This document shows positions 39,623 to 53,798 of a DNA stretch of 64,000 bases, piece by piece. Under the pieces are notes generated by a model. That model worked only from the letters and a program-made list of their open reading frames with translations. It was not told where the DNA came from and did no database searches. The translations under genes and the position numbers were made by a program. The stretch is taken from assembly GCF_000158915.1 (NCBI RefSeq), contig NZ_GG657754.1, positions 8,801,387 through 8,865,386 of the forward strand, in the 5' to 3' direction. Position 1 is the first letter of the stretch; each line of letters begins with the position of its first letter. The stretch is from Streptomyces himastatinicus ATCC 53653. Its GTDB lineage: Bacteria; Actinomycetota; Actinomycetes; Streptomycetales; Streptomycetaceae.

Positions 39623-41140
39623 CTACCGCACCTCCTGGTCGCTGTCCGGGACCCGTGCGGCCCGCATCGGCAGCCGCTCCGTCCGCGGCTGGCCCGTCCC
39701 GTGTCGCAGGGCCTGCCGCTCGCCATGGCCCCGCAGCGCGACGTGCCCGTCCCACAGCGTGCCGTCGGTCCGGTCACGCGGATCGGGGTCGATCAGCACC
39801 ACACCGATCACCGGAATGCGCTGGTCCGCGAGCTGCCGCGCCACCGTGTGCAGCCATGCGGCGCTGCCGTGCCCGGCCCGTACGACGAGCACGGTCCGGG
39901 TGCCGAGGTACTGGAGGTCGGTCCACGCCGTGCCGGGCGCGACCGAGCCGACTCCGAGCCGGTGCCCCTGAGCCGGCACGGCCGCGGCACGCTCGCCGCT
40001 GACCACGGTGGGGTCTCCTGGCTTCGGGCGGTGGCCTGCGAGCTGCGGTCCTGGCAGACCATCGATGATGACAACGGGCCCCTCGGCCGCCAGTGCCCTG
40101 GCGACGTTCAGGGCGATCACGCTCGTGCCGCGCGCACAGCCCAGTTCCAGCAGCGACACCGGTTCCGCGGAGTCGCGCACGGTGCGGGCCAGGGACGCGG
40201 TGAGTCTTTGCCGTGCCGCCCGGGTGCGTCGGCGCTGCCACAGGGGGCCCGACCGGCGGGGCAGCTCCGTGATGACCGAGGCGCCCAGGTTCGCCGCGAT
40301 CTCCCGGCGCAGCACGGGGCGGTCCGCCACCACCGCGCCGACCGCGGCCAGCGCGAGCCCGAGGACGAGGCCGAGGACGAGCCCGATCGCGGCGTTGGTG
40401 ACGGCGGCCCTGGGCAGGGAGTGCCGCACCACGCGCGGGGCGTCCACGATCTGCGTGCCGGCCGTGACCCGGGGCGTGCCGATGCGCGCTTCCTCGGCGC
40501 GCTGGCCGTAATCGGCGATCCGCGAAGTGAGTTCGGCCCGGCGGGAGAAGAGCGACTCGATGTCCGCCGACGCCTGCGGGTCGCTCTCCGGCGATCGGCC
40601 TCCGATCGCCTTGTTGACCTTGAGGAGCTCGTCCTGCATGCGGTCACGCTGGTCGAGCAGGGCCTTGGCCTCGGCGTTCGCGGTCTCCCGCATCCGCTTC
40701 ACATGGTCGGCGACGAACGCGTCGGCCAGCGCCTTGGCCCGGGCCGCCGCCGCCGCGTCGCTGTCACCTGTCACGGTGATCTGGAGCAGGTTGTTGGTCA
40801 AGCCGGTACCCCGGTAGTCCCGCATGAAGTCTTCGGGGCGTTCCGGGGACTTGAGGGACCGCAGGGCCTTGGCGGCGATCCGCGTGGTCCCCAGCACCTC
40901 GACATCGGTGCGGATCAGCGTTCCGGTGTCGTTCGGCTGGTCCTCCTGATGCGCGACCAGAACCTTGGTCGCCGCGGTCGGCCGCGGCGGCAGCAGGACC
41001 GCCACCGCCGCGCCGGTCAGCAGCCCCAGCAGCGCCAGCGAGTACCAGAGGCGGCGGCGCCTGCGCACCGCCACCACCAGCGCCTGGAGGTCGATGAGTG
41101 GAGCGGCTGCCGACGACTCCGCGGTGGTGTTCGTCGTCAC
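39623..41140 (-). CDS. Wzz-type chain length/BY-kinase-like protein with degenerate kinase domain
   Basis: This protein has about 505 residues and starts at GTG 41140 (VTTNTTAESSAAAP), overlapping the other wzz-like gene by 4 nt. The two membrane helices (YSLALLGLLTGAAVAVLLPP near 40 and AIGLVLGLVLGLALAAVGAV near 245) flank a coiled extracytoplasmic region. The cytoplasmic C-terminus aligns in layout with bacterial tyrosine kinases. However, the Walker A reads ELGCARGTSVIALNVARALA with no Lys, and the second loop reads VVIIDGLPGP. It looks like a pseudokinase that may still bind a partner. It probably sets chain length or helps export. Confidence 0.85.
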   Translation of the reverse strand: MTTNTTAESSAAAPLIDLQALVVAVRRRRRLWYSLALLGLLTGAAVAVLLPPRPTAATKVLVAHQEDQPNDTGTLIRTDVEVLGTTRIAAKALRSLKSPERPEDFMRDYRGTGLTNNLLQITVTGDSDAAAAARAKALADAFVADHVKRMRETANAEAKALLDQRDRMQDELLKVNKAIGGRSPESDPQASADIESLFSRRAELTSRIADYGQRAEEARIGTPRVTAGTQIVDAPRVVRHSLPRAAVTNAAIGLVLGLVLGLALAAVGAVVADRPVLRREIAANLGASVITELPRRSGPLWQRRRTRAARQRLTASLARTVRDSAEPVSLLELGCARGTSVIALNVARALAAEGPVVIIDGLPGPQLAGHRPKPGDPTVVSGERAAAVPAQGHRLGVGSVAPGTAWTDLQYLGTRTVLVVRAGHGSAAWLHTVARQLADQRIPVIGVVLIDPDPRDRTDGTLWDGHVALRGHGERQALRHGTGQPRTERLPMRAARVPDSDQEVR

Positions 41141-42534
41141 CCTGAGCCTCCCGTCGCGTGCACGGGAACCGCGAGTGCCAGAGTGGTGTTCTCCGGAGGG
41201 CGGCCGGCGGATCGCGTCGGGCGGGCCCGGACCGTGCCGGTGACGACGATGCCGACGACCTCGTGCCCCGCGTCCGCGCACGCCTCGGCGATGCCGGCGA
41301 GTTCCCCCGCGGTCCAGTTGCCCGCGCTGAGCACGACCAGGGCACCGGACTCGGTGTCGCGGTCCGGCACCATCGGATGGGACACCGAGACCTCCACCAC
41401 CCGCAGCATGGGGTATCCCCCGCTCGAAGAGCCCGGGGAGGGATCGCTCTTGGCCTCGGCGACGAGCTGCCCGGCGGCCTGGCGGGCGATCTCGTCGCCC
41501 TCCGGTACGACAACCAGCAGCCGCCGGGGGGCCGGCAGCCGGTTCCGCAGGCGAGCGCACACGCGCCGGTAGCGAATCCGCCTGCTGGCCTCGTCGCCCG
41601 ACCTCTGCGGGGTCGGTATGTCCCACCGGGTGTCGACGCCGAGGAGCCGGCGGATCCGGGCCCGCGCGCCACCGCCTTCCGGCCGGTGCGCGGGCCGTTC
41701 ACCAGGTACGTCGACGGTACCCAGCACTGCCGAGCCCAGCGCAGCGGCGATCTCCGGTGCGGTGCGCAGCCGGCGGTTCACCCGTGCGGCGGCGAGATGA
41801 CCGATGACCGCGAGCAGGAGGAACAACAGCGCCCCGCCGACGATGAGCTGCATCCTCGTCGGCGGTGCCTCGCCGGTGGGCCGGGCCGCCGGCCCCATGA
41901 CGACCATGCCGGCCTTGTCGGTCGCCGGGTCGGCCTCGTCCAGCTTCTTCATGGACTCCGCCAGCGCGGTGCGCAGCTTCTCGAGTTCGGTGCGGGCCTG
42001 CACGCTCTCCACGGTCTGCCCCGGATCGGCCGCTTCGGCCAGATCGGTGATGCGGCGGTTGGTCTCCTCCACCTTCTTTCGCAAGTCCTCGAGCCCCGTC
42101 GCCGCTGTGGGGTCGGTGTCGTCGCCCGCGATCCGCGCGGCGTAGGTGACGAACTGCCGGGCCACTTGGTCGGAGAGCCGTTGTGCGCGCTCCGGGGTGT
42201 CGGCCGTGCCCGAGATCTTGAGGATGTTCCCGTCGGCGGCCTTGGCGCTCACCTGATCCCGCAGCTCGGTGCCGCTGACGCCGGTCCAGCGGAGCGTGGC
42301 GGCCGCCCGGTCGACCACCTCCGAACTGGTCGCGATCTGCGCCTGGGTCAGCAGCTCGCGCTCCTCCCACTGCCCCGGCAGCAGGACCGATGCCGACGTC
42401 GTGTAACTCGGCGGGATCAGCAAGGAGGCGCCGTAGCCGACGAGTGCGCCCACCAGGGTGAGGATGGCGAGAAGCCGCCGGCGCCGACGGAAAATCCGCC
42501 CGATCGTGACCAGGCGTATCGTGTCATCGCTCAA
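41137..42534 (-). CDS. Wzz/polysaccharide co-polymerase family protein
   Basis: The protein has 465 residues: MSDDTIRLVTIGRIFRRRRR, helix LLAILTLVGALVGYGASLLI, then SYTTSASVLLPGQWEERELL, a coiled-coil region (LEDLRKKVEETNRRITDLAE) and a second helix (IVGGALLFLLLAVIGHLAAA near 230). The 200-residue cytoplasmic end contains RRLLVVVPEGDEIARQAAGQ and GALVVLSAGNWTAGELAGIA, again a worn P-loop-like fold without Walker lysines. Together with the next gene it forms a pair of co-polymerase proteins without a recognisable active kinase. 4-nt overlaps on both sides. Confidence 0.87.
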   Translation of the reverse strand: MSDDTIRLVTIGRIFRRRRRLLAILTLVGALVGYGASLLIPPSYTTSASVLLPGQWEERELLTQAQIATSSEVVDRAAATLRWTGVSGTELRDQVSAKAADGNILKISGTADTPERAQRLSDQVARQFVTYAARIAGDDTDPTAATGLEDLRKKVEETNRRITDLAEAADPGQTVESVQARTELEKLRTALAESMKKLDEADPATDKAGMVVMGPAARPTGEAPPTRMQLIVGGALLFLLLAVIGHLAAARVNRRLRTAPEIAAALGSAVLGTVDVPGERPAHRPEGGGARARIRRLLGVDTRWDIPTPQRSGDEASRRIRYRRVCARLRNRLPAPRRLLVVVPEGDEIARQAAGQLVAEAKSDPSPGSSSGGYPMLRVVEVSVSHPMVPDRDTESGALVVLSAGNWTAGELAGIAEACADAGHEVVGIVVTGTVRARPTRSAGRPPENTTLALAVPVHATGGSG

Positions 42535-43811
42535 CGGTGCTGCCTCTTTCCTGGCCGCACCGGGTCGCCCGCCGACACCGGAGTGTGTGCGCGGCAGGCA
42601 GCGGCGTAGGCGGCGAGCAGCGATGCTTGCGAGTTCCGCCAGGAGAGCGGCCCGCTGATCCGCTCCTGGCCGATCTTGCCCATCCGGGCGCGCTTCTCCG
42701 GATCGTCGAGGAGCAGCGCGATGAGCCCCGCGAACGCGGCCTCGTCGTTGGCGGGCGCGTAGACGGCGGCGTCACCGGCGGAGACTCGCGCCTCCCGGAG
42801 GTCGAACGAGACGATCGGCCGGCCCATCGCCATGTACTCCAGGACCTTGTTCATGGTCGACACGTCGTTGAGCGGATTGCGTGGGTCGGGGGAGAGGCAC
42901 ACGTCCGCGGTGGACAGGTAGCGCACCAGGTCGGCGTCCGGGATGCGTCCGGTGAACTGCACCTGCTCGGAGAGCCCGAGCCGCCGGGACAGCTCCACCA
43001 TCGCGTCGAAGGCGTCGCCGGCGCCGACGAACACCGCATGCCAGTCGGTCCGTCCGAGCTCGTCGCGCAGCTTCGCGAGGGCCCGCAAGGCGTAGTCGAC
43101 GCCGTCCTGCGGGCCCATGACGCCGAGGTAGCACAGCAGATGAGGCTTGCCGCGCTTCAACTCCGGCTCGGGCGGCACCGGTTGGAACCGTTCGATCGCG
43201 GGCGCGCTGCGCACCACGAACACGTCCTCCGGCCGCCGGCCGCCACGGCGCACCGCGACGTCCCGGTAGCTCTCGTTCGTGGCGAGCACGATGTCCGCCG
43301 CCCGGTAGGTCCGCCGCTCCAGCGCGCACACGGCGCGGTAGAGCAGGTCTTCGCCGCGGTCGAACCGGGAGAGGTACAGCTCGGGCACCAGGTCGTGCTG
43401 GTCGAAGACGAACCGCGCGCCGCGCCGCTTCAGCCACAGAGCCGGCAGGAACAGCAGGTCGGGCGGGTTGCAGGCGTGGACCACGTCGACCGGGCCGACC
43501 TTGCGGGCCAGCCGGACCGTGTGCCACAGCGCCGATCCGTACTCCCGCAGGTACCCGGCCGGTCCTCCGGTGGCCGCGCGCAACGGGTAGCGGTGGATCC
43601 GTACCCCGTCGATCTCCGCCTCGGGCTCCGTGTCCCGCTTTTCCCCCCGGGGACAGATGACGTGCACCTCCCAGCCCGCGTCGCGCAGCGTCGTGCACTC
43701 CTGCCACACCCGCCGGTCGAACGGCACCGACAGGTTCTCCACCAGGATCAGCGCGCGCCGGCCTGCCCCGTCGCCGCCGGCCGTGTCATCGAACGACGTG
43801 TCACCAAGCAA
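42531..43811 (-). CDS. Glycosyltransferase family 4
   Basis: This GT-B enzyme has 426 residues: LVENLSVPFDRRVWQECTTL, HVICPRGEKRDTEPEAEIDG, DVVHACNPPDLLFLPALWLK, LLCYLGVMGPQDGVDYALRA, and the C-terminal NPLNDVSTMNKVLEYMAMGR acceptor/donor loop with the Glu. Close relatives stand after the primer glycosyltransferase in exopolysaccharide clusters and usually add the second sugar. Its ATG overlaps the dehydrogenase gene by 11 nt. Confidence 0.9.
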   Translation of the reverse strand: MLGDTSFDDTAGGDGAGRRALILVENLSVPFDRRVWQECTTLRDAGWEVHVICPRGEKRDTEPEAEIDGVRIHRYPLRAATGGPAGYLREYGSALWHTVRLARKVGPVDVVHACNPPDLLFLPALWLKRRGARFVFDQHDLVPELYLSRFDRGEDLLYRAVCALERRTYRAADIVLATNESYRDVAVRRGGRRPEDVFVVRSAPAIERFQPVPPEPELKRGKPHLLCYLGVMGPQDGVDYALRALAKLRDELGRTDWHAVFVGAGDAFDAMVELSRRLGLSEQVQFTGRIPDADLVRYLSTADVCLSPDPRNPLNDVSTMNKVLEYMAMGRPIVSFDLREARVSAGDAAVYAPANDEAAFAGLIALLLDDPEKRARMGKIGQERISGPLSWRNSQASLLAAYAAACRAHTPVSAGDPVRPGKRQHR

Positions 43812-45126
43812 GGCCCATGTACCCCGGTTCGGCCCGGCGCGCCTCGGCGTCGGGAAGGCGGATGAGGTCGACGAGCACCGGTCCTTCGCCCTGGGGCAGC
43901 TCCGACAGCACGGCCGGATCCCCGGTCCCGACCAGGCACACCTCGGCGTGTTCGAGCACCTCGCCGACGGAGTCCGCGAGCAGCTGCGCGAGGTGCGGCA
44001 GCCGGTTCTCGATGTACTCGCGGTTCGCGCCGATCAGCCGGGAGAGGTTCACATTGGCGTCGTAGATCCGCAGGTCGTAACCCTTACCGAAGAGCCTCTC
44101 CGCCAGTTCGACGAGCGGGCTCTCGCGGAGGTCGTCGGTGCCGGGTTTGAAGGACAGCCCGAACATGCCGATCCGGCGCTTGCCGGTGCGCTCGACCAGG
44201 TCCACCGCGCGTTGCAGGTGGTCGGAGTTGGAGGGCAGTACGTGGGCGAGAATGGGCACCGAGACATCGGCCCGCTGCGCCGCATGCACCAGGCTGCGCA
44301 GGTCCTTGGGCAGGCAGGAGCCACCGAAGGCGAAGCCGGGCCGCAGGTAGGCGGGGCTGATGTTCAGCTTGCGGTCGGCCAGGAACACGTCCATCACCTG
44401 GTGCGAGTCGACCCCGAGCGCCTGGCACACCGCGCCCAGCTCGTTCGCGAAGCCGATCTTGAGGCCGTGGAACGCGTTGTCCGCGTATTTGATCGCCTCG
44501 GCCGTCGGGACCGGTACCCGGAACACCTCGCCGGGCAAGCCGCCGTACAGCGCCGTCACCGCGTCGCCGCTCGCCGGGTCGAGCTCGCCGATGACGGTCT
44601 TGGGCGGGTCGAAGAAGTCCCGCACGCTCGTGCCCTCGCGCAGGAACTCCGGGTTGACCGCGACCCCGAAGCCCACCCCGGCCGTGCCGCCGACGTTCTT
44701 CTCCAGGATCGGCACCAGCAGGTTCAGGCAGGTGCCGGGGAGCATGGTGCTGCGGAACACGACGGTGTGCCGGTCTCCCCGCTTGCCCCCCTCGGCCAGC
44801 GCGGCGCCGATCTGCTCGGTGACCCGCTCCAGGTACGTGGTGCACAGACTGCCGTTGGGCTCCGACGGCGTGCCCACGCAGACCAGCGACACCTCGCTCT
44901 CCATGATCGCCTCACGGACGTCGCCGGTGGCGCGTAACGCTCCGGTCCGCACGACCTCGGCGATGAGCTCGCCGATCCGCTCCTCGACCACCGGCGCCTT
45001 GCCGTCGTTGACCAGGTCGACCTTCACCTGGTTGACGTCCACCCCGATGACTTCGTGACCCAGGCTCGCCAGGCACGCGGCCGACACGCAGCCCACGTAG
45101 CCGAGCCCGAAAACGCTGACTCTCAT
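43801..45126 (-). CDS. UDP-glucose/GDP-mannose 6-dehydrogenase
   Basis: This 441-residue dehydrogenase has VFGLGYVGCVSAACLASLGH (NAD-binding), CVGTPSEPNGSL, NPEFLREGTSVRDFFDPPK, the catalytic Cys in AFGGSCLPKDLRSL, and GMFGLSFKPGTDDLRESP. Two-step oxidation gives a UDP- or GDP-uronate. The GLSFKPGTDDLRESP segment is closer to GDP-mannose dehydrogenases, but I cannot choose the substrate safely. It provides the acid sugar for the polymer and possibly the substrate of the AsnB-like amidotransferase. Confidence 0.92.
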   Translation of the reverse strand: MRVSVFGLGYVGCVSAACLASLGHEVIGVDVNQVKVDLVNDGKAPVVEERIGELIAEVVRTGALRATGDVREAIMESEVSLVCVGTPSEPNGSLCTTYLERVTEQIGAALAEGGKRGDRHTVVFRSTMLPGTCLNLLVPILEKNVGGTAGVGFGVAVNPEFLREGTSVRDFFDPPKTVIGELDPASGDAVTALYGGLPGEVFRVPVPTAEAIKYADNAFHGLKIGFANELGAVCQALGVDSHQVMDVFLADRKLNISPAYLRPGFAFGGSCLPKDLRSLVHAAQRADVSVPILAHVLPSNSDHLQRAVDLVERTGKRRIGMFGLSFKPGTDDLRESPLVELAERLFGKGYDLRIYDANVNLSRLIGANREYIENRLPHLAQLLADSVGEVLEHAEVCLVGTGDPAVLSELPQGEGPVLVDLIRLPDAEARRAEPGYMGLAW

Positions 45127-45199
45127 GCCCCGTCTCTCCCCCCAGGCAGGCCCTCGCGGCCTGCCTCCCATGCGTCGGCCGGACAACGACCTCCGCGCA

Positions 45200-46723
45200 T
45201 CAATAGGCCCCCTGCCCTTGGAGCACCGCACGCAGCGTCTTCCACAAGATCACTGTGTCCAGGGCGAGCGACCAGTCCTCCACGTACCGCAGGTCCAGCC
45301 GGACCGCCTCCTCCCACGGCAGGTCGCTGCGTCCGCTGATCTGCCACAGGCCGGTGAGCCCGGGCTTGACCAGCAGCCGCCGACGGATGTCCGGGCCGTA
45401 CGCGGCGGACTCCTCCGGTAACGGAGGCCGCGGGCCGACGAGCGACATCGAGCCGGTGAGCACGTTGAAAAGCTGCGGGAGCTCGTCGATCGAGTACCGG
45501 CGCAGCACCGCTCCCACCCGGGTCACCCGCGGATCCCGGCGGAGCTTGAACAGCAGTCCGGCGCCCTCGTTGCGGTCGGCCAGTTCGGCACGTGCGCGGT
45601 CAGCCCCGGCGACCATGGTGCGGAACTTGAGAATGGTGAACTCGCGGCCGTCCTTGCCGACCCTGCGCTGGCGGTAGAACACCCCGCCCCGACTGTCCAT
45701 CAGCACGAGCAGCCCGACGAGCACCATCAGCGGCGCGAACAGCATCAGCAGGATCGCTGAGCCCATCCGGTCGACGACCGCTTTGACCGCCCGGCGGCCC
45801 CCGGTGAAGGTCGGCATGCTGACCCGCAGCAGCGGGATCCCGAGCACCGCGTCGACGTGCAGCCGCGGGCCGGCCACCTCCATCAGTACGGGTGCCACGA
45901 CCATCTCGGTGTCGCTGCCCTCGAGGTTCCAGGCCAGCCGCTGCAACCGGTCCGGTGACCAGTGCGGGTCCGGTGTGACCGCGACGACACGGTAGCCGTC
46001 GTGGCGGACGTGCTTGGCGACGTCCGCCAGTCGGCCGACGACCCGCACTCCGTCCAGTTGGTCACCGTCGAGCCCGCGACCGTCCGTCGTGCACACCGCC
46101 TCCACCCGCCAGCCGAGGTGCGGGAACTTGCGGGTTCGGGTAATCAGGTCGCGCAGGGTGGCGGGGCTCCCGGCAGCGAGCACCGGTCGCAGGCACCGTC
46201 CGTCCTTGCGCTGTTTGTGCAGCCAGAGGCGCAGCAGATACCGCGCGGTCATGGTGATGAGGGCGATCGCGGGGATCGCGACGAAGATCCAGAGCTTGAT
46301 GTTGCGCGAGGTGAGGGCGATCCCGCCGAGCGCCAGGACGACGGTCGCCATGAACAGTGAGCGTCCGAGCCGGCGGAATTCCTCGGCGCCCTGGCCGAGC
46401 ACGGCCGGAGCCCATGACCGGCTCACCGCAAGCGCTCCCAGCACCAGCAGCTCGGTGCCGAAGGCGAGAATTCCCCACTTCTCGTGCCAGTTGGCCGCGT
46501 CCCGGGCCCCGAAGAAGTTGCCGATCGCCGCCACCACGCAGGCGGTGGCCACGGTATCGCTGGTGATCACGGTACGGCGGTAGCGCTGCTCCCAGTCGCT
46601 CGCGGGCCGGCTGATCGCCCCGTTCGCCGGACGACCGCCCGCCGATAAAAACGGGCTGGCTGATTCCCCCTGCTGCACAGACCCCCCCAGGTCGCCAGTG
46701 GGCTCGACGTGTTTGCTCCACAC
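45200..46723 (-). CDS. Priming sugar transferase (polyprenyl glycosylphosphotransferase)
   Basis: The protein has about 507 residues. The N-terminal half has four to five helices and a CoA-binding-like domain. The second half is the bacterial sugar transferase: GVFYRQRRVGKDGREFTILK, FNVLTGSMSLVGPRPPLPEE and LLVKPGLTGLWQISGRSDLP. It attaches the first sugar-1-phosphate to undecaprenyl phosphate. The start is GTG 46723 with GGGGGAG five nt upstream; an upstream extension would translate the GC-box repeats and is unlikely. This is the first gene of the operon, 73 nt before the dehydrogenase gene. Confidence 0.92.
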   Translation of the reverse strand: MWSKHVEPTGDLGGSVQQGESASPFLSAGGRPANGAISRPASDWEQRYRRTVITSDTVATACVVAAIGNFFGARDAANWHEKWGILAFGTELLVLGALAVSRSWAPAVLGQGAEEFRRLGRSLFMATVVLALGGIALTSRNIKLWIFVAIPAIALITMTARYLLRLWLHKQRKDGRCLRPVLAAGSPATLRDLITRTRKFPHLGWRVEAVCTTDGRGLDGDQLDGVRVVGRLADVAKHVRHDGYRVVAVTPDPHWSPDRLQRLAWNLEGSDTEMVVAPVLMEVAGPRLHVDAVLGIPLLRVSMPTFTGGRRAVKAVVDRMGSAILLMLFAPLMVLVGLLVLMDSRGGVFYRQRRVGKDGREFTILKFRTMVAGADRARAELADRNEGAGLLFKLRRDPRVTRVGAVLRRYSIDELPQLFNVLTGSMSLVGPRPPLPEESAAYGPDIRRRLLVKPGLTGLWQISGRSDLPWEEAVRLDLRYVEDWSLALDTVILWKTLRAVLQGQGAY

Positions 46724-48795: not shown

Positions 48796-49111
48796 CAGCC
48801 GCCTTCCGGTCCGGCCTCCGGATACGGACCGCCGAAGGCATGGCTAAGGATTGCCCAGGCCCCGCGCTCACATGCGGCGTAACCAGCCGGAACGCAAAAG
48901 GGGCCGAAAAGGGCTGAAACCCATGCCGACGGCCTCGCTCACCGTGAATCCCTCGTGACACTCAGGCATTTGCCTGAGTGCCCACCCCCGATTCGAGGGG
49001 TAGGCGTCATGCCCGACTGGTTCGCTTGACGGGCCCGGATCGCGGCGGATGTGCCGGCCCGCCGGTTTTCGCTGAGTCGTCGGGAAACTCTGAACCGAGG
49101 AGTCGTTATCT
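48796..49111. promoter_or_regulatory. Divergent control region of the PAS-LuxR regulator and ATP-grasp operon
   Basis: This 316-bp gap contains no gene. CGGTCCG and CGGACCG (48807-48831) form a 7-bp inverted repeat near the regulator start. The main element is the 22-bp palindrome at 48959-48980, described separately. GAGGAG at about 49098-49103 is the ribosome binding site of the ATP-grasp gene. Confidence 0.5.
48959..48980. promoter_or_regulatory. Perfect 10-2-10 palindrome, probable LuxR operator
   Basis: CACTCAGGCA (48959-48968), TT, then TGCCTGAGTG (48971-48980) is a perfect inverted repeat about 130 bp before the ATP-grasp start and 170 bp from the regulator start. The centre (GGCATTTGCC within CT...AG) resembles in layout the CTVGGGAWWTCCCBAG sites of PAS-LuxR activators such as PimM. 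An RNA hairpin is an alternative, but no gene ends here, so an operator is more likely. Confidence 0.65.
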
Positions 49112-50494
49112 GTGAGTAAGGTGCTGTTTGTCTACGCCAAGGGTGGGCCGCCGCTGGAATACGCGCTGTCCCGGGTCGCCGCGAAGGCCGAAGTGCATCT
49201 GCTCGAGCTCAGTCCCCTTCCGCCCTCCGCCCACGAGGTGGTCACCCGGCTGTGCGCCTCGGTGGTCGCCCCCGTGGACACCGCGTCCCAGGACCTCGTC
49301 GCGCTCATCACGGCTCAGGCACAGGCCGTCGGTGCCGACGCGGTGTTCACCCCGTCCGAGTACGCCGTGGTGGCGGTGGCCGACGCCTGCGAGCGGCTGG
49401 GTCTCGCCGGGGCCGGTGCGCACTGCGTGCTGGCCCGGGACAAGCGGATGATGCGCCGCACCTGGGATGCGCACGGGGTGTCCCAGCCACGGTTCCGCTC
49501 CGTGGCCACCGAGCGCGATCTGCACGAGGCCGCGGCCGAGTTGCCGTACCCGATGCTGATGAAGGCGGCCTGGAGCGCCGGGTCCACCGCCCATCAGATC
49601 CTGCGCGGCCCGGAGGACATCGCGCCCGCCTGGGCCCGGGCCCGTGAGGTGATGGAGGAGTCCGCCCGCCAGGGCTACGCCGAGCTCCATGTGGCCGGGG
49701 CGGACGCCGACTTCCTCGTCGAGGAGATCGTGACGGGCACGGCCGGGGACTGGTTCGAGGAGCCGGGCTGGGGCGACTACGTCAGCGTCGAGGGCGTCGT
49801 GGCCGAGGGCGTCCATCACCCGGTGTGCCTGAGCGGGCGGATGCCCACCGTCGAGCCGTTCACCGAGCGCGCCGGGATCACCCCAGCCCTGCTCCCCGAG
49901 GACGCCCAGCACAAGGTGGTGGAGCTGGCGACGGCCGCCGTGGACGCGCTCGGCCTGCGCACCTGCGGCACCCACACCGAGATCAAGCTGGGCGCCGACG
50001 GACGGATGTGGGTCATCGAGACCGCTGCCAGGTTCGGCGGCGCGATGACCGTCCCCCAGATCGAGGAGGTCTTCGGGGTGGACGTCATCGGCATGCTCAT
50101 CGACCGGCTGCTCGGCCGCGAGGTCGACTGGCCCGCTCCGGGGCCCGGTTCGGTGCTGGGCGCAGCGGACGCCAAGGGCGCGGCCGGCTCGCTGGTGGTG
50201 CTGGCCGTGGACGGCTCCGGCGCGCCGTGGCCGGACCGGCGGCTGTGGGACTTCGACGCCGTCCAGCGCTCCGGACTGATCTCCACCGGGGCACGGCTGA
50301 CGAAGGTGGCCGAGCACTCGCTGCCGGACGGCACCCCGGTGCCGGTCTACGACCCGGCGGCGGGCGCGAACACCATGGCAGCGCTGTGTCTGCTGGTGGC
50401 CGACGATCCGGTCACGGTGATACGTGACTTCGAAAGGCTCAACGACGCGCTGCCCACCGCCCTGCCGCCCGTCCCGGCCACCGGGAGGCCGTGA
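49112..50494 (+). CDS. ATP-grasp domain carboxylate ligase
   Basis: The enzyme has 460 residues and starts at GTG 49112 (MSKVLFVYAKGGPPLEYALS). The ATP-grasp fold is visible in HCVLARDKRMMRRTWDAHGV (entry to the A subdomain), YPMLMKAAWSAGSTAHQI, FLVEEIVTGTAGDW (hinge) and THTEIKLGADGRMWVIETAA followed by RFGGAM (the Mg/ATP-binding E...N-like site). Family members couple carboxylates to amines via acyl-phosphate, for example dipeptide-forming L-amino acid ligases. Its stop overlaps the dikinase start (ATGA), and an MFS gene follows, the same ligase-plus-exporter pattern as bacilysin-type genes. Substrates are unknown. Confidence 0.88.
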   Translation: MSKVLFVYAKGGPPLEYALSRVAAKAEVHLLELSPLPPSAHEVVTRLCASVVAPVDTASQDLVALITAQAQAVGADAVFTPSEYAVVAVADACERLGLAGAGAHCVLARDKRMMRRTWDAHGVSQPRFRSVATERDLHEAAAELPYPMLMKAAWSAGSTAHQILRGPEDIAPAWARAREVMEESARQGYAELHVAGADADFLVEEIVTGTAGDWFEEPGWGDYVSVEGVVAEGVHHPVCLSGRMPTVEPFTERAGITPALLPEDAQHKVVELATAAVDALGLRTCGTHTEIKLGADGRMWVIETAARFGGAMTVPQIEEVFGVDVIGMLIDRLLGREVDWPAPGPGSVLGAADAKGAAGSLVVLAVDGSGAPWPDRRLWDFDAVQRSGLISTGARLTKVAEHSLPDGTPVPVYDPAAGANTMAALCLLVADDPVTVIRDFERLNDALPTALPPVPATGRP

Positions 50495-52509
50495 TGACCG
50501 GAATCAGCGTGTTTCCGAGCCCGGCCACCGCGCCCGGCACCGATGCCACCGTGGTCGGCGAGAACCTGTCGCTGCCGCTGTTCCGGTCGCTGTCCGGAGT
50601 GCTTGCCGGACACCCGTATCTGAAGGTGGTGGTCGACCGCACCGAGCACACCTGGCATCTGCTGGACACCGCCGTCCACCCCTTCCACGTCAACTATGTG
50701 GCCACCCGCATCCTCGGGATGGGCCTGGACGAACTCGACGCCCGACTCGACGTGTTCAATGCCTCGGTGTACACCGACCCCGGCCGCCGCTTCCTGCTCG
50801 GTGTGCTGTCGCTGCACGCCGACGAGGACACCGAGGGCCGGGACCGGCCGTTCCTGGTGCTGGAGACCACCGAGGCCGACACCATGGACGGCCCCTTGCT
50901 CCAGGAGTTCTACGATTTCGTCCGGGAGCGGGTGGACGGGCGGCTGCCGTTGCTGCTGAAACCCGCCAACCACGGCCAGGAGGCGGCGCTCGCCCCCGTG
51001 AGCGACGTAACGCTGCCGCGCATCCTCAGCCACGAGCTGTTCGTCAGCCGCCCCCGCACCCCGCTGAACACCGGGGAGGCCACCGGCCGGCTGCGCTGGT
51101 TCGCCTCGCTCGAGGAGTACCGCGCGCACGCCGCGGACCTCGGCTGGTCGGACATCGTGGCCATGGACTGTCTGCCCGACGATGTGCCACGGGTGGCCGG
51201 ATTCATCAACGCCGCCCCCATCACCCCGCTGTCCCACACCAATGTGCTGGCCTCCGGCTGGGGCATCCCGAACGCCATCGTGCGCGACATGGCCCGGCTG
51301 GTGGAGTCGGAGGAGCTGGACGGGGCGTGGGTGTGCTACCGGGTCCAGGACGACGAGGTGAGCCTGGTCCGGCTGCACGAGGTCCCGGAGCTGGACGAAC
51401 CCGCGTGGCACCAGCAGCGGATCCGGCTGGAGCCGCCGCTGCTGGAGGACATCCCCGTCCTGGAACTGCGCCGGCTGCGCCGCGAGGACCGGGACCGCTA
51501 CGGCACCAAGGCCGCCAATCTCGGTGAACTCCACCATGTGCTGGACAGCCGCACCGCCGATCTCACCGCTTTCTACGGCCGCGCCCGGCCGCCCCGGAAG
51601 GATCTGTACGGCCATCTCGCCTCCCGGCTGGCCGCGTCCGCCGATCCCGAGGCGCTGCGCCAGGCGGCCTCGGAGTTCGTGGCGGCCACCGTCACCGCGC
51701 CCGACGGCGTGGCGCTGCCGTTCGCCCTCCAGCACCGCTTCCTGATCTCCTCGCCCGCTCTGCAACAGGGCATCGGCAAGCTGAAGATGGCGCTGGAGCT
51801 GGGAGCCACCGATGTGCTGGACCCGCTGTGCCTGAGCCTCCAGCAGCTGGTGCGCGGCACCCCGGTGCCGGAGGATGTGGCCGCGCGGATCACCGGCCCG
51901 TTCGCGGACCGGGTCGGCCGCAAGCGGCTGGTGGTGCGGTCCTCCTCCAACGCCGAGGACCTGCCCGGCTTTTCCGCCGCCGGGGTCTACGACTCCATCA
52001 CCACGGTGCACGGCACGGACGAACTCCTCGACGCCGTCCGGCAGGTGTGGGCCTCGCTGGTGTCGCCGCGCAGTGTCCGGCTCCGTCACGAGGCGGGCAT
52101 CTCCCTGGACGACACCTACATGGGCGTGATCGTGCAGGAGTACACCCCGGCCGAACTCGGCGGGGTGCTGGTCACCCGCAACCCCACGCGGCGCGAGGAC
52201 TTCCGCAACGTCTACATCAACTGCACGCCCGGTTCGCCCGAGAGCGTCGTCGACGGCACCGCGCTGCCGTTGCAGTACCTCTACAACACCGTGGAGGGCG
52301 GGGGCCGCACCGTGGACCTCGGCTCTTCGGTTGAGGATCTGCCGTCCCCGGCCCGGGCGCGGCTGGCGGATCTCGCGCTCACCGGGCGGCTGCTCCAGTC
52401 GCACTTCGCGGACGATCCGGATGATCCGGACGACCCGCTGGACATCGAGTGGCTGATGACCGAAGAGGGCGGTTTCAAGCTGGTCCAGCTCCGCCCGTAC
52501 GCGCTGTGA
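50491..52509 (+). CDS. PEP-synthase-like dikinase with GWD-type domain order
   Basis: The protein has 672 residues. Residues 1-200 are not recognised. A phosphohistidine swivelling domain follows: AGFINAAPITPLSHTNVLAS then GWGIPNAIVRDM, with His249 in the position of the phosphoryl carrier. The ATP-binding PPDK_N domain occupies the C-terminal half (YGTKAANLGELH, VVRSSSNAEDLPGFSAAGVY, YMGVIVQEYTPAELGGVLVT and the closing VQLRPYAL). In PEP synthase and PPDK the ATP domain comes first and a PEP-binding barrel ends the protein. Here the order is reversed and there is no barrel, as in glucan/phosphoglucan water dikinases. It may phosphorylate a small molecule, giving AMP and Pi. The ATP-grasp and MFS genes overlap it on either side. 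Confidence 0.85.
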   Translation: MMTGISVFPSPATAPGTDATVVGENLSLPLFRSLSGVLAGHPYLKVVVDRTEHTWHLLDTAVHPFHVNYVATRILGMGLDELDARLDVFNASVYTDPGRRFLLGVLSLHADEDTEGRDRPFLVLETTEADTMDGPLLQEFYDFVRERVDGRLPLLLKPANHGQEAALAPVSDVTLPRILSHELFVSRPRTPLNTGEATGRLRWFASLEEYRAHAADLGWSDIVAMDCLPDDVPRVAGFINAAPITPLSHTNVLASGWGIPNAIVRDMARLVESEELDGAWVCYRVQDDEVSLVRLHEVPELDEPAWHQQRIRLEPPLLEDIPVLELRRLRREDRDRYGTKAANLGELHHVLDSRTADLTAFYGRARPPRKDLYGHLASRLAASADPEALRQAASEFVAATVTAPDGVALPFALQHRFLISSPALQQGIGKLKMALELGATDVLDPLCLSLQQLVRGTPVPEDVAARITGPFADRVGRKRLVVRSSSNAEDLPGFSAAGVYDSITTVHGTDELLDAVRQVWASLVSPRSVRLRHEAGISLDDTYMGVIVQEYTPAELGGVLVTRNPTRREDFRNVYINCTPGSPESVVDGTALPLQYLYNTVEGGGRTVDLGSSVEDLPSPARARLADLALTGRLLQSHFADDPDDPDDPLDIEWLMTEEGGFKLVQLRPYAL

Positions 52510-53798
52510 AGGGCCGTGTGCCGTTCCTCCGCCGCTCCCCGGCGGAGGGACGGACCCCGCTCACCGCCGGGGCACGCCGGGTCATCGCCCTCAACAACGG
52601 TTTCCAGCTGCTGTTCAACCTGCTGTGGTGGATGCCGGTCTTCTACGCCTACCAGCGGCAGGCCGGGCTCTCGGACGCGCAGATCTTCGGCATCCAGTCC
52701 CTCTACTACATCGCGTTCTGCCTGTTCGAGATCCCGACGGGCCTGGTGGCCGACCGGATCGGCGCCCGCAACTGTCTGCGCGCGGGCGCCGTGGTGATGA
52801 CCGCGGCGAACCTGGTCCCGGTTCTTTCCCCCGACTACACCGGCTTCCTGGTGCACTTCCTCGCCATCGCCGCGGGCCGCTCCCTCACCTCCGGGGCGGC
52901 CAGCGCCTACCTCTACGACGCACTGCACGCGGAGGGCGCGGACGACCACTATCTGCGCGCCGAGGGCAACGCGCGGGCGCTCGGGCTGGCCGCGAAGGTG
53001 ATGTGCTGGCCCCTGGTGGGCCCCCTGATGGCGCTGTCCCGGCCCACCCCGTACCTCCTCAGCGCGGTCAGCGCCGGGGCGTCACTGGCCTGTGCCATGG
53101 CCCTGCCCCGGCTGGCCGGCGCGGAGTCGGGGACACGCCGGTCGGGGGTGTGGCGGGAGGCCGGGCGGGCGCTGCGCGGGCTGCGCGGCTCCCCGTGGCT
53201 GGCCCTGGTGATGGTGCAGGGCGTGGCAGTCTTCACGCTCTCCCGGATCTGCCAGGTGAACCTGTTCCAGCCGATCCTGATCGACCAGGGCATCCCGGAG
53301 CCCTCGCACGGCAGTGTGCTGGCGGCGGTGACGGTGGCCGAGGCCGTGGGCGCGGCCCGGCCGCAGTGGCTGGGCCGCAAGCTGAAACCGCTGACGCTGG
53401 TGTCCGTCCTGAGCCTGGCGATGGCGGTGTCCCTGGCCGGGATCACCCTCGGCGGGCCGATGGCGGCGGTGGCGCTGCTCTGCCTGTTCTCGGCGGTCAC
53501 CGGCTTCGCGTATCCGATCCAGCGCAAACTGGTGAACGACGCGGTGCCACCGGGCGCTCCGCGCGCCACCCTGCTGTCGGTGGAGAGCATCATCGACCGC
53601 GCGGTGTGCGCCCTGGTGGCGGTGGCTGCGGGCGCGTACCTCTCGGCGGGCCGGATGGACGCGTTGCTGTGGCACAGCGCCGCCGTGACCGCTGCGGTGA
53701 TGCTCGCGGTGCACCTGGCCGTGCTGATCGGATGCCCCCGCCCACCACGGGCAGCCCGCGAGGAGCGTCAGGAGGCCGTCGGGCACGCACGAACGTGA
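52506..53798 (+). CDS. MFS transporter
   Basis: This major facilitator protein has about 430 residues and starts at GTG 52506, overlapping the dikinase stop by 4 nt. RVIALNNGFQLLFNLLWWMP opens helix 1, and FGIQSLYYIAFCLFEIPTGL then VADRIGARNCLRAG gives the loop 2-3 signature. About 11-12 helices follow. As the third gene of the ATP-grasp/dikinase operon it probably exports, or takes up, the product. A clean terminator follows at 53882. Confidence 0.88.
   Translation: MKGRVPFLRRSPAEGRTPLTAGARRVIALNNGFQLLFNLLWWMPVFYAYQRQAGLSDAQIFGIQSLYYIAFCLFEIPTGLVADRIGARNCLRAGAVVMTAANLVPVLSPDYTGFLVHFLAIAAGRSLTSGAASAYLYDALHAEGADDHYLRAEGNARALGLAAKVMCWPLVGPLMALSRPTPYLLSAVSAGASLACAMALPRLAGAESGTRRSGVWREAGRALRGLRGSPWLALVMVQGVAVFTLSRICQVNLFQPILIDQGIPEPSHGSVLAAVTVAEAVGAARPQWLGRKLKPLTLVSVLSLAMAVSLAGITLGGPMAAVALLCLFSAVTGFAYPIQRKLVNDAVPPGAPRATLLSVESIIDRAVCALVAVAAGAYLSAGRMDALLWHSAAVTAAVMLAVHLAVLIGCPRPPRAAREERQEAVGHART

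Follow-up and report, generated by a model that had tools for sequence, protein, structure and literature searches.

A candidate N-phosphodipeptide cassette of Streptomyces himastatinicus centred on a dikinase with its phosphohistidine domain ahead of its ATP domain

We analysed a stretch of 64,000 nucleotides from Streptomyces himastatinicus ATCC 53653 (contig NZ_GG657754.1, positions 8,801,387 to 8,865,386; here called the window), in which a predicted dikinase gene is the middle member of a three-gene operon (Table 1). Its ends overlap those of a gene for a BacD-like ATP-grasp ligase upstream and of an MFS gene downstream, and a gene for a PAS-LuxR regulator lies divergent from the operon. 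Two starts are candidates for the dikinase gene, a GTG that overlaps the ligase gene by 4 bases and an ATG three bases further on. Residues are numbered here from the ATG, and His249 of the original prediction, a note made on this DNA without database searches, is His248 in our numbering. The genome is 11.03 Mb in size and contains seven PPDK_N matches, three of them pieces of a single frame of 1022 residues. The original prediction considered the dikinase gene singly and missed the operon, which is the strongest clue to the function of the enzyme.

Table 1. Features of the dikinase locus (positions in the window; residues numbered from ATG 50494)
Feature	Coordinates	Strand	Basis or remark
PAS-LuxR regulator gene, 437 residues	47473..48786	-	Pfam PAS_4 and GerE; divergent from the operon
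Perfect inverted repeat CACTCAGGCA-TT-TGCCTGAGTG, candidate operator	48959..48980	.	divergent promoter region, between regulator and ligase
Ligase gene: BacD-like ATP-grasp L-amino-acid (dipeptide) ligase, predicted, 460 residues	49112..50494	+	ATP-grasp_4 (Pfam)
Dikinase gene: N-terminal module, phosphohistidine domain, ATP domain	50491..52509	+	672 residues from GTG 50491, 671 residues from ATG 50494
N-terminal module, residues ~16-185, candidate acceptor-binding region	50539..51048	+	well predicted in the model
Phosphohistidine (swivel) domain, residues 185-296	51046..51381	+	VIA-align to 5fbu and Enzyme I; hhalign; PF00391 below cut-off
Codon of His248, candidate phosphoryl carrier	51235-51237	+	aligned with the catalytic His of PEP-utilizer domains
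PPDK_N-type ATP domain, residues 318-671	51445..52506	+	Pfam PF01326; 5hv1 superposition
MFS gene, putative exporter	52506..53798	+	start overlaps the dikinase stop by 4 bases; MFS_1 57.2 bits, cut-off 33.4

The C-terminal half of the dikinase is an ATP domain of the PPDK_N type. PPDK_N matched residues 398-669 with 122.7 bits against a cut-off of 27, as the sole Pfam family above cut-off in the protein, and residues 318-671 superposed on the ATP domain of rifampin phosphotransferase 5hv1 with a Z of 29.9 (291 residues, 2.5 Å, VIA-align). Residues 185-295 matched the His domain of the same enzyme in structure 5fbu (Z 11.1, 99 residues, 2.6 Å, VIA-align). Pyruvate kinase 3t05 gave a similar match to this phosphohistidine domain (Z 10.9), as did Enzyme I over residues 187-301 (Z 9.9). 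Structural alignment and hhalign thus agree with the original prediction that the phosphohistidine domain (residues 185-296) comes before the ATP domain (318-671). The AlphaFold2 model was built from 40 aligned sequences, a more diverse alignment than that of a first model with a predicted local distance difference test (pLDDT) value of 69; its mean pLDDT was 85.9 and its predicted template modelling score 0.82, with pLDDT of 62-78 around residues 241-260. About 200 N-terminal residues had been left unassigned by the original prediction. From residue 185 onward they belong to the phosphohistidine domain; residues ~16-185 form a module in which no Pfam family scored above cut-off, most 10-residue blocks have a pLDDT of 80-95, and the acceptor site may be held. 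A profile of residues 19-393 matched a single chain among solved structures, at E 1.8. The barrel of phosphoenolpyruvate (PEP)-dependent relatives is absent, as predicted: Pfam gave no barrel match, and the open reading frame stops where the ATP domain stops. Nor did Pfam find in the dikinase any carbohydrate-binding module, including the starch-binding type whose absence had been predicted. Its domains are thus of known kinds but distinctly arranged.

The assignment of the phosphohistidine to His248 was supported by profile comparison. When the dikinase profile was aligned by hhalign with 27 PEP-utilizer domains, His248 fell on their catalytic His with a probability of 83% and a score of 35.6. 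None of 100 column shuffles scored above 20.0, and none of four other parts of the dikinase above 14.0. The PEP-utilizer alignment was drawn from 34 loci, three of them without a clean frame. The 31 used first gave a probability of 12%, and 24 rows filtered by pattern gave 84% but had wrongly lost three real domains. In the final set only four reverse-strand translations were removed, and the remaining 27 rows gave 83%, or 76% without the remote relative L146. Position 248 was His in all 110 aligned homologues, and P245, L246, S247, H248 and N250 were invariant among the dikinase and 15 divergent homologues (46-70% identity). Residues K339, R482, E652, Q665 and R667, which we take to be the equivalents of ATP-site residues of pyruvate phosphate dikinase (PPDK) and rifampin phosphotransferase, were identical in the same 110 rows, in alignment A1, and in the dikinase with the 15 divergent homologues; in alignment A3, which has 40 rows including L146, K339, E652 and R667 were only nearly invariant. 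The ATP site and the phosphohistidine domain are intact. The ATP domain, the ATP-site residues and a swivel domain with its catalytic His are all present, and the protein is a member of the PPDK/PEP-synthase-type dikinases (PF01326 superfamily). Such dikinases convert ATP to AMP and Pi through a phosphohistidine and then pass the phosphoryl group to an acceptor, and a phosphohistidine mechanism is plausible for this one.

Narrower identities, namely glucan dikinase, PEP synthase, PPDK, rifampin phosphotransferase and RedH/PigC, were rejected or down-weighted on Pfam, NCBIfam and structural alignment. PEP synthase and PPDK proper are excluded by the missing C-terminal PEP/pyruvate barrel. The NCBIfam model of rifampin phosphotransferase scored 101.2 bits against a cut-off of 999, on the ATP domain only, and that enzyme has the opposite domain order.

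From 104 relatives the best 80, named loci of Streptomycetaceae, were taken to examine conservation of the operon. Loci L009-L037, which partly duplicate the genomes of L038-L117 and have little flank, were kept outside these counts and inside the 110-row alignment. Genes in the loci were called by a simple codon-usage caller, which may miss or mis-start small neighbours and on which the intergenic gaps depend. The ligase and the phosphotransferase were encoded together in 78 of the 80 loci, and the MFS gene and the PAS-LuxR regulator were each retained in 76. The ligase and dikinase genes were separated by -4 bases in 74/80 loci, and the dikinase and MFS genes by -4 bases in 51/80. The regulator gene was upstream and divergent in 69 loci. 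At L140 (7707-11063, + strand) ligase and dikinase occur as a natural fusion of 1118 residues, with 56% and 58% identity to the ligase and dikinase of the window; since the two are fused there, their steps are probably consecutive. The nearest solved structure to the ligase is BacD (E 2.1e-52 over residues 60-341), and for this reason a dipeptide ligase is the natural reading of the partner enzyme. It scored 182.6 bits with the NCBIfam BacD model, under the cut-off of 850, and appears to be a related ATP-grasp ligase rather than BacD itself. The MFS protein presumably transports outward.

Other neighbours are mostly variable, and only two further blast clusters occur in more than five loci, one for a HAD-like protein in 22 loci and one for an M4 protease in 11. 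In the window, a polysaccharide-type gene set (41137-46570, - strand; a sugar-nucleotide dehydrogenase, a lipid-carrier sugar transferase and partners, their sequences read by eye) adjoins the cassette; in L080 (9178-14542) and L081, homologues of these four genes flank it on the opposite side. As for anti-phage defence, PADLOC models matched none of the three operon proteins at E up to 0.01.

The inverted repeat between regulator and ligase has an 18-base core, exact at 48961-48978, of which no second exact copy was found in the window or the genome. The palindrome was scored in the window and 78 named loci (L088 and L109 have no called ligase). With up to 3 mismatches allowed, 66 of these 79 loci had it in the 450 bases upstream of the ligase, with five matches elsewhere in 1.38 Mb. 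The exact core was found in 18 of the 80 named loci. This distribution suggests a regulon of a single operon with a dedicated regulator that would bind the palindrome. A PimM-type PAS-LuxR operator, searched for by its consensus, showed no enrichment in 69 regulator-ligase intergenic regions.

Matches to the dikinase at E 1e-20 or better were found in 49 of 295 Streptomyces genomes, as a whole dikinase in 32 (one in two pieces) and as the ATP domain only in 17. With the profile of residues 19-393, matches came from 41 of the 249 family genomes, spread over 4 of 17 genera, and from 4 of the 396 genomes of the phylum, three of them of the window's genus and one remote. In this sample the dikinase family is almost wholly Streptomycetaceae. 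The nearest named relative is from Streptomyces niphimycinicus (96% identity). Two linear plasmids, of 555 and 561 kb (L191, NZ_CP109451.1, and L192, NZ_CP108236.1), also carry the whole cassette, and the dikinase copies there are annotated only as 'PEP/pyruvate-binding domain-containing protein'; the location on plasmids suggests transfer of the cassette between strains. The cassette is probably a small, self-regulated and mobile unit. The remote relative L146 (7716-10379, - strand; 26-27% identity) comes from another family of the phylum and has a TPLAHVN motif before the ATP domain. With its apparent lipoprotein signal it is possibly an exported dikinase-like protein; its locus had no plasmid match.

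A second clade comprises 10 loci of one other genus, with dikinases of 46-49% identity; an 11th such genome, G793, is outside the count. In all 10, a glycosyltransferase belonging to one cluster adjoins the ligase, in the order dikinase, ligase, glycosyltransferase. It is EryCIII-like by Pfam in the two of the 10 members that were run. Grouped with this clade on a long branch, the divergent cassette L118 (8626-13276, + strand) has the order dikinase, MFS, ligase, with no glycosyltransferase called beside it. Near two glycosyltransferase-type cassettes lie a gene for a zinc carboxypeptidase of family M14, adjoining in L142 (10808-12130, + strand), a single case that may be chance, and a gene for a type 2A encapsulin shell protein that has a cyclic nucleotide (cNMP)-binding domain in L143 (17307-18614, + strand), probably there by chance.

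On the basis of these genes we propose that the cassette makes an N-phosphodipeptide of the phosphoramidon/FMPI type, an inhibitor of metal-dependent proteases, with a probability of roughly 0.6. The ATP-grasp ligase would join two L-amino acids. The dikinase would bind ATP in its C-terminal domain and take the beta-phosphate onto His248, with release of AMP and Pi, whereupon the swivelling middle domain would swing to the N-terminal module. There the phosphoryl group would pass to the dipeptide held by this module, forming a P-N bond with its alpha-amino nitrogen. The MFS protein would then export the N-phosphodipeptide, which would inhibit metalloproteases of the thermolysin class, and the whole cassette would be under its own regulator.

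FMPI is phosphorylated on the alpha nitrogen, and in phosphoramidon and talopeptin a 6-deoxysugar is joined to the dipeptide through a phosphoramidate. To our knowledge, few enzymes that form P-N bonds have been found. PMC6429109 calls P-N bonds rare among natural products, describes FMPI of S. rishiriensis as phosphophenylalanylarginine, a metalloprotease-inhibiting phosphoramidate, and reports that phosphoramidon and talopeptin, both bearing a 6-deoxysugar, inhibit thermolysin and other metalloproteinases. A precedent for N-P bond formation is the ATP-dependent N-phosphorylation of glutamine by a glutamine kinase in Campylobacter (PMC6429109). The FMPI papers date from 1982-1984 and name NK-122 as the producer strain (reference list of PMC6429109). 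Our literature search, of partial coverage, found no reported FMPI gene cluster, no paper joining phosphoramidon with ATP-grasp, and none joining phosphoramidate with ATP-grasp, Streptomyces and dipeptide. We found the whole cassette with an exact palindrome core in S. rishiriensis NBRC 13407 (L056). We can only guess that the main clade makes FMPI (phospho-Phe-Arg) itself, and a wrong guess is the likelier outcome. Somewhat short of even odds is the fuller proposal that the three genes are a complete FMPI-type pathway in which a dikinase of His-before-ATP order makes the P-N bond, that streptomycetes exchange the cassette as a unit in its own right, that a glycosyltransferase in one clade leads to a phosphoramidon-like product, and that the cassette lies repeatedly beside a protease of the very class its product inhibits.

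This last point concerns neighbour family c5, assigned to the thermolysin (M4) family by Pfam on one member and for the rest by cluster and profile. An M4 gene adjoins the cassette in 11 of the 80 named loci against 0.48 expected, with a Poisson tail of 5e-12, the cases being related. The expectation was derived from 270 matches in 61 genomes totalling 519.8 Mb (rounded sizes), uncorrected for shared ancestry. Three arrangements occur, downstream on the + strand, downstream on the - strand and upstream on the - strand, the first of them in two separate clades. The other recurrent neighbour, the HAD-like protein, is encoded in the flank beyond the MFS gene at 22/80 loci, all of one clade (for example L047 11481-12134, - strand). 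It has an apparent signal peptide and, by eye, a DLGETLVHT motif. Pfam support for it comes from sub-cut-off matches of a fragment, the full-length copy having no match; it is a possible phosphatase acting on the exported product.

Several observations weigh against the proposed pathway. Product and enzyme activity are predictions from the genes; it is from these that we infer the stoichiometry of the dikinase, the acceptor and its nitrogen, the order of steps, regulator binding, export and the product. On the dikinase fragment PF00391 scored 12.0 bits against a cut-off of 23.1, and a genome-wide search at E up to 1 gave five PF00391 matches, none of them at this site. Nine of the 11 M4 cases lie in one clade, and the M4 link was noticed post hoc. 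On the tree the M4 label amounts to two changes as drawn, of which one is forced by well-supported branches, as counted against two other labelled groups only with 53 unlabelled rows left out, and the M4 profile had no match in the window, L056, L118 or L140-L154. The HAD-like neighbour would also fit a phosphorylated pro-drug. The regulator gene is located after the MFS gene in 7/80 named loci and is missing from 4/80. In 13/79 scored loci no palindrome lies within 450 bases of the ligase, and the palindrome belongs to the main clade, since among 16 more distant or unnamed loci it lies near the ligase only in L154. The glycosyltransferase clade has no MFS homologue between or directly after dikinase, ligase and glycosyltransferase. 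No glycosyltransferase was called beside the window cassette, and to make phosphoramidon itself it would therefore need a second locus. Because the named FMPI producer is strain NK-122, not NBRC 13407, the match to S. rishiriensis holds at the species level only.

The same genes could serve self-protection, a toxic bacilysin-like dipeptide being N- or O-phosphorylated inside the cell, as rifampin is, and restored by a phosphatase outside after export. This would agree with the BacD-like partner ligase, with the ATP and His domains of the dikinase, which superpose best on rifampin phosphotransferase, and with the HAD-like protein and its apparent signal peptide. The HAD-like gene, however, is confined to one clade and owes its name to the fragment matches described above, and a phosphoramidate inhibitor accounts better for the glycosyltransferase clade and the M4 neighbours; we regard self-protection as unlikely. 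A substrate among glucans or other glycans was brought to mind by the domain order, phosphohistidine before ATP, which is that of glucan water dikinases. The original prediction drew this likeness; it holds for domain order and stops there, the neighbours being a dipeptide ligase, an exporter and a regulator. With no carbohydrate-binding module found by Pfam, a dipeptide ligase and an MFS protein as conserved partners, and the dikinase fused to the ligase in L140, we consider a glycan dikinase very hard to credit.

RedH and PigC share the type of ATP domain found here, and the dikinase might accordingly be a second ligase or condensing enzyme that activates a carboxylate or carbonyl by phosphoryl transfer, with a product free of phosphorus. 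The NCBIfam models of RedH and PigC scored 74.9 and 62.6 bits, on the ATP domain only, but these scores are far under the cut-offs of 1350 and 1300, and the models of rifampin phosphotransferase and PEP synthase scored higher, which leaves such an enzyme improbable. The proposed pathway might also hold with another acceptor, namely an amino acid phosphorylated ahead of ligation, or else a hydroxyl or guanidino group on the dipeptide, since the sequence fixes neither the acceptor atom nor the order of steps. We give this variant low odds, a shade below those of a condensing enzyme; the alpha-nitrogen site of FMPI speaks against it. So does the description of FMPI as a phosphoramidate phosphodipeptide in PMC6429109.

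If the N-phosphodipeptide pathway is correct, the cassette would provide a candidate gene set for FMPI, a marker for related metalloprotease inhibitors in about a tenth of streptomycetes (32/295 Streptomyces genomes), and a short system for direct tests of P-N bond formation. The L140 fusion would be useful for structural work.

Among known enzymes, rifampin phosphotransferase has an ATP domain and a His domain that superpose on those of the dikinase with the Z values given above. Its ATP domain (1-315) comes first, however, and is followed after about 440 residues by the His domain (754-867), whereas the dikinase has its His domain first. PEP synthase and PPDK likewise differ from the His-before-ATP order of the dikinase. 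Glucan, water dikinase shares it, but the dikinase has other partners and no carbohydrate-binding module was found in it. HpeI of Rhodococcus rhodochrous (9goj) has an ATP domain that superposes on residues 318-671 (Z 22.3, root-mean-square deviation 6.1); its chain of 387 residues, 330 of them resolved, is too short for a His domain and an N-terminal module like those of the dikinase. PhtL, a bidomain enzyme resembling PPDK and PEP synthase, is postulated to form the N-P bond of phaseolotoxin (PMC11278893), and is likened to the dikinase by that description. The product differs, being a sulfodiaminophosphinyl tripeptide of Pseudomonas syringae (PMC11278893).

The closest parallels in predicted logic are with the phosphoramidates themselves. 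For phosphoramidon and talopeptin the logic is alike, with a dipeptide and its N-phosphorylation, and an EryCIII-like glycosyltransferase occurs in another clade of the dikinase family; the window cassette differs in having no glycosyltransferase. TalE is reportedly the kinase that forms the N-P bond in the biosynthesis of both (Baulig 2019), and in function it would be the nearest precedent for the dikinase. If TalE is homologous to the dikinase, the cassette would be a deoxysugar-free variant of a known pathway; otherwise, it would represent a second route to P-N bonds. For FMPI, the cassette was seen in a strain of S. rishiriensis (L056) other than the named producer, and a ligase, a kinase and an exporter, the three genes of the operon as we read them, would suffice.

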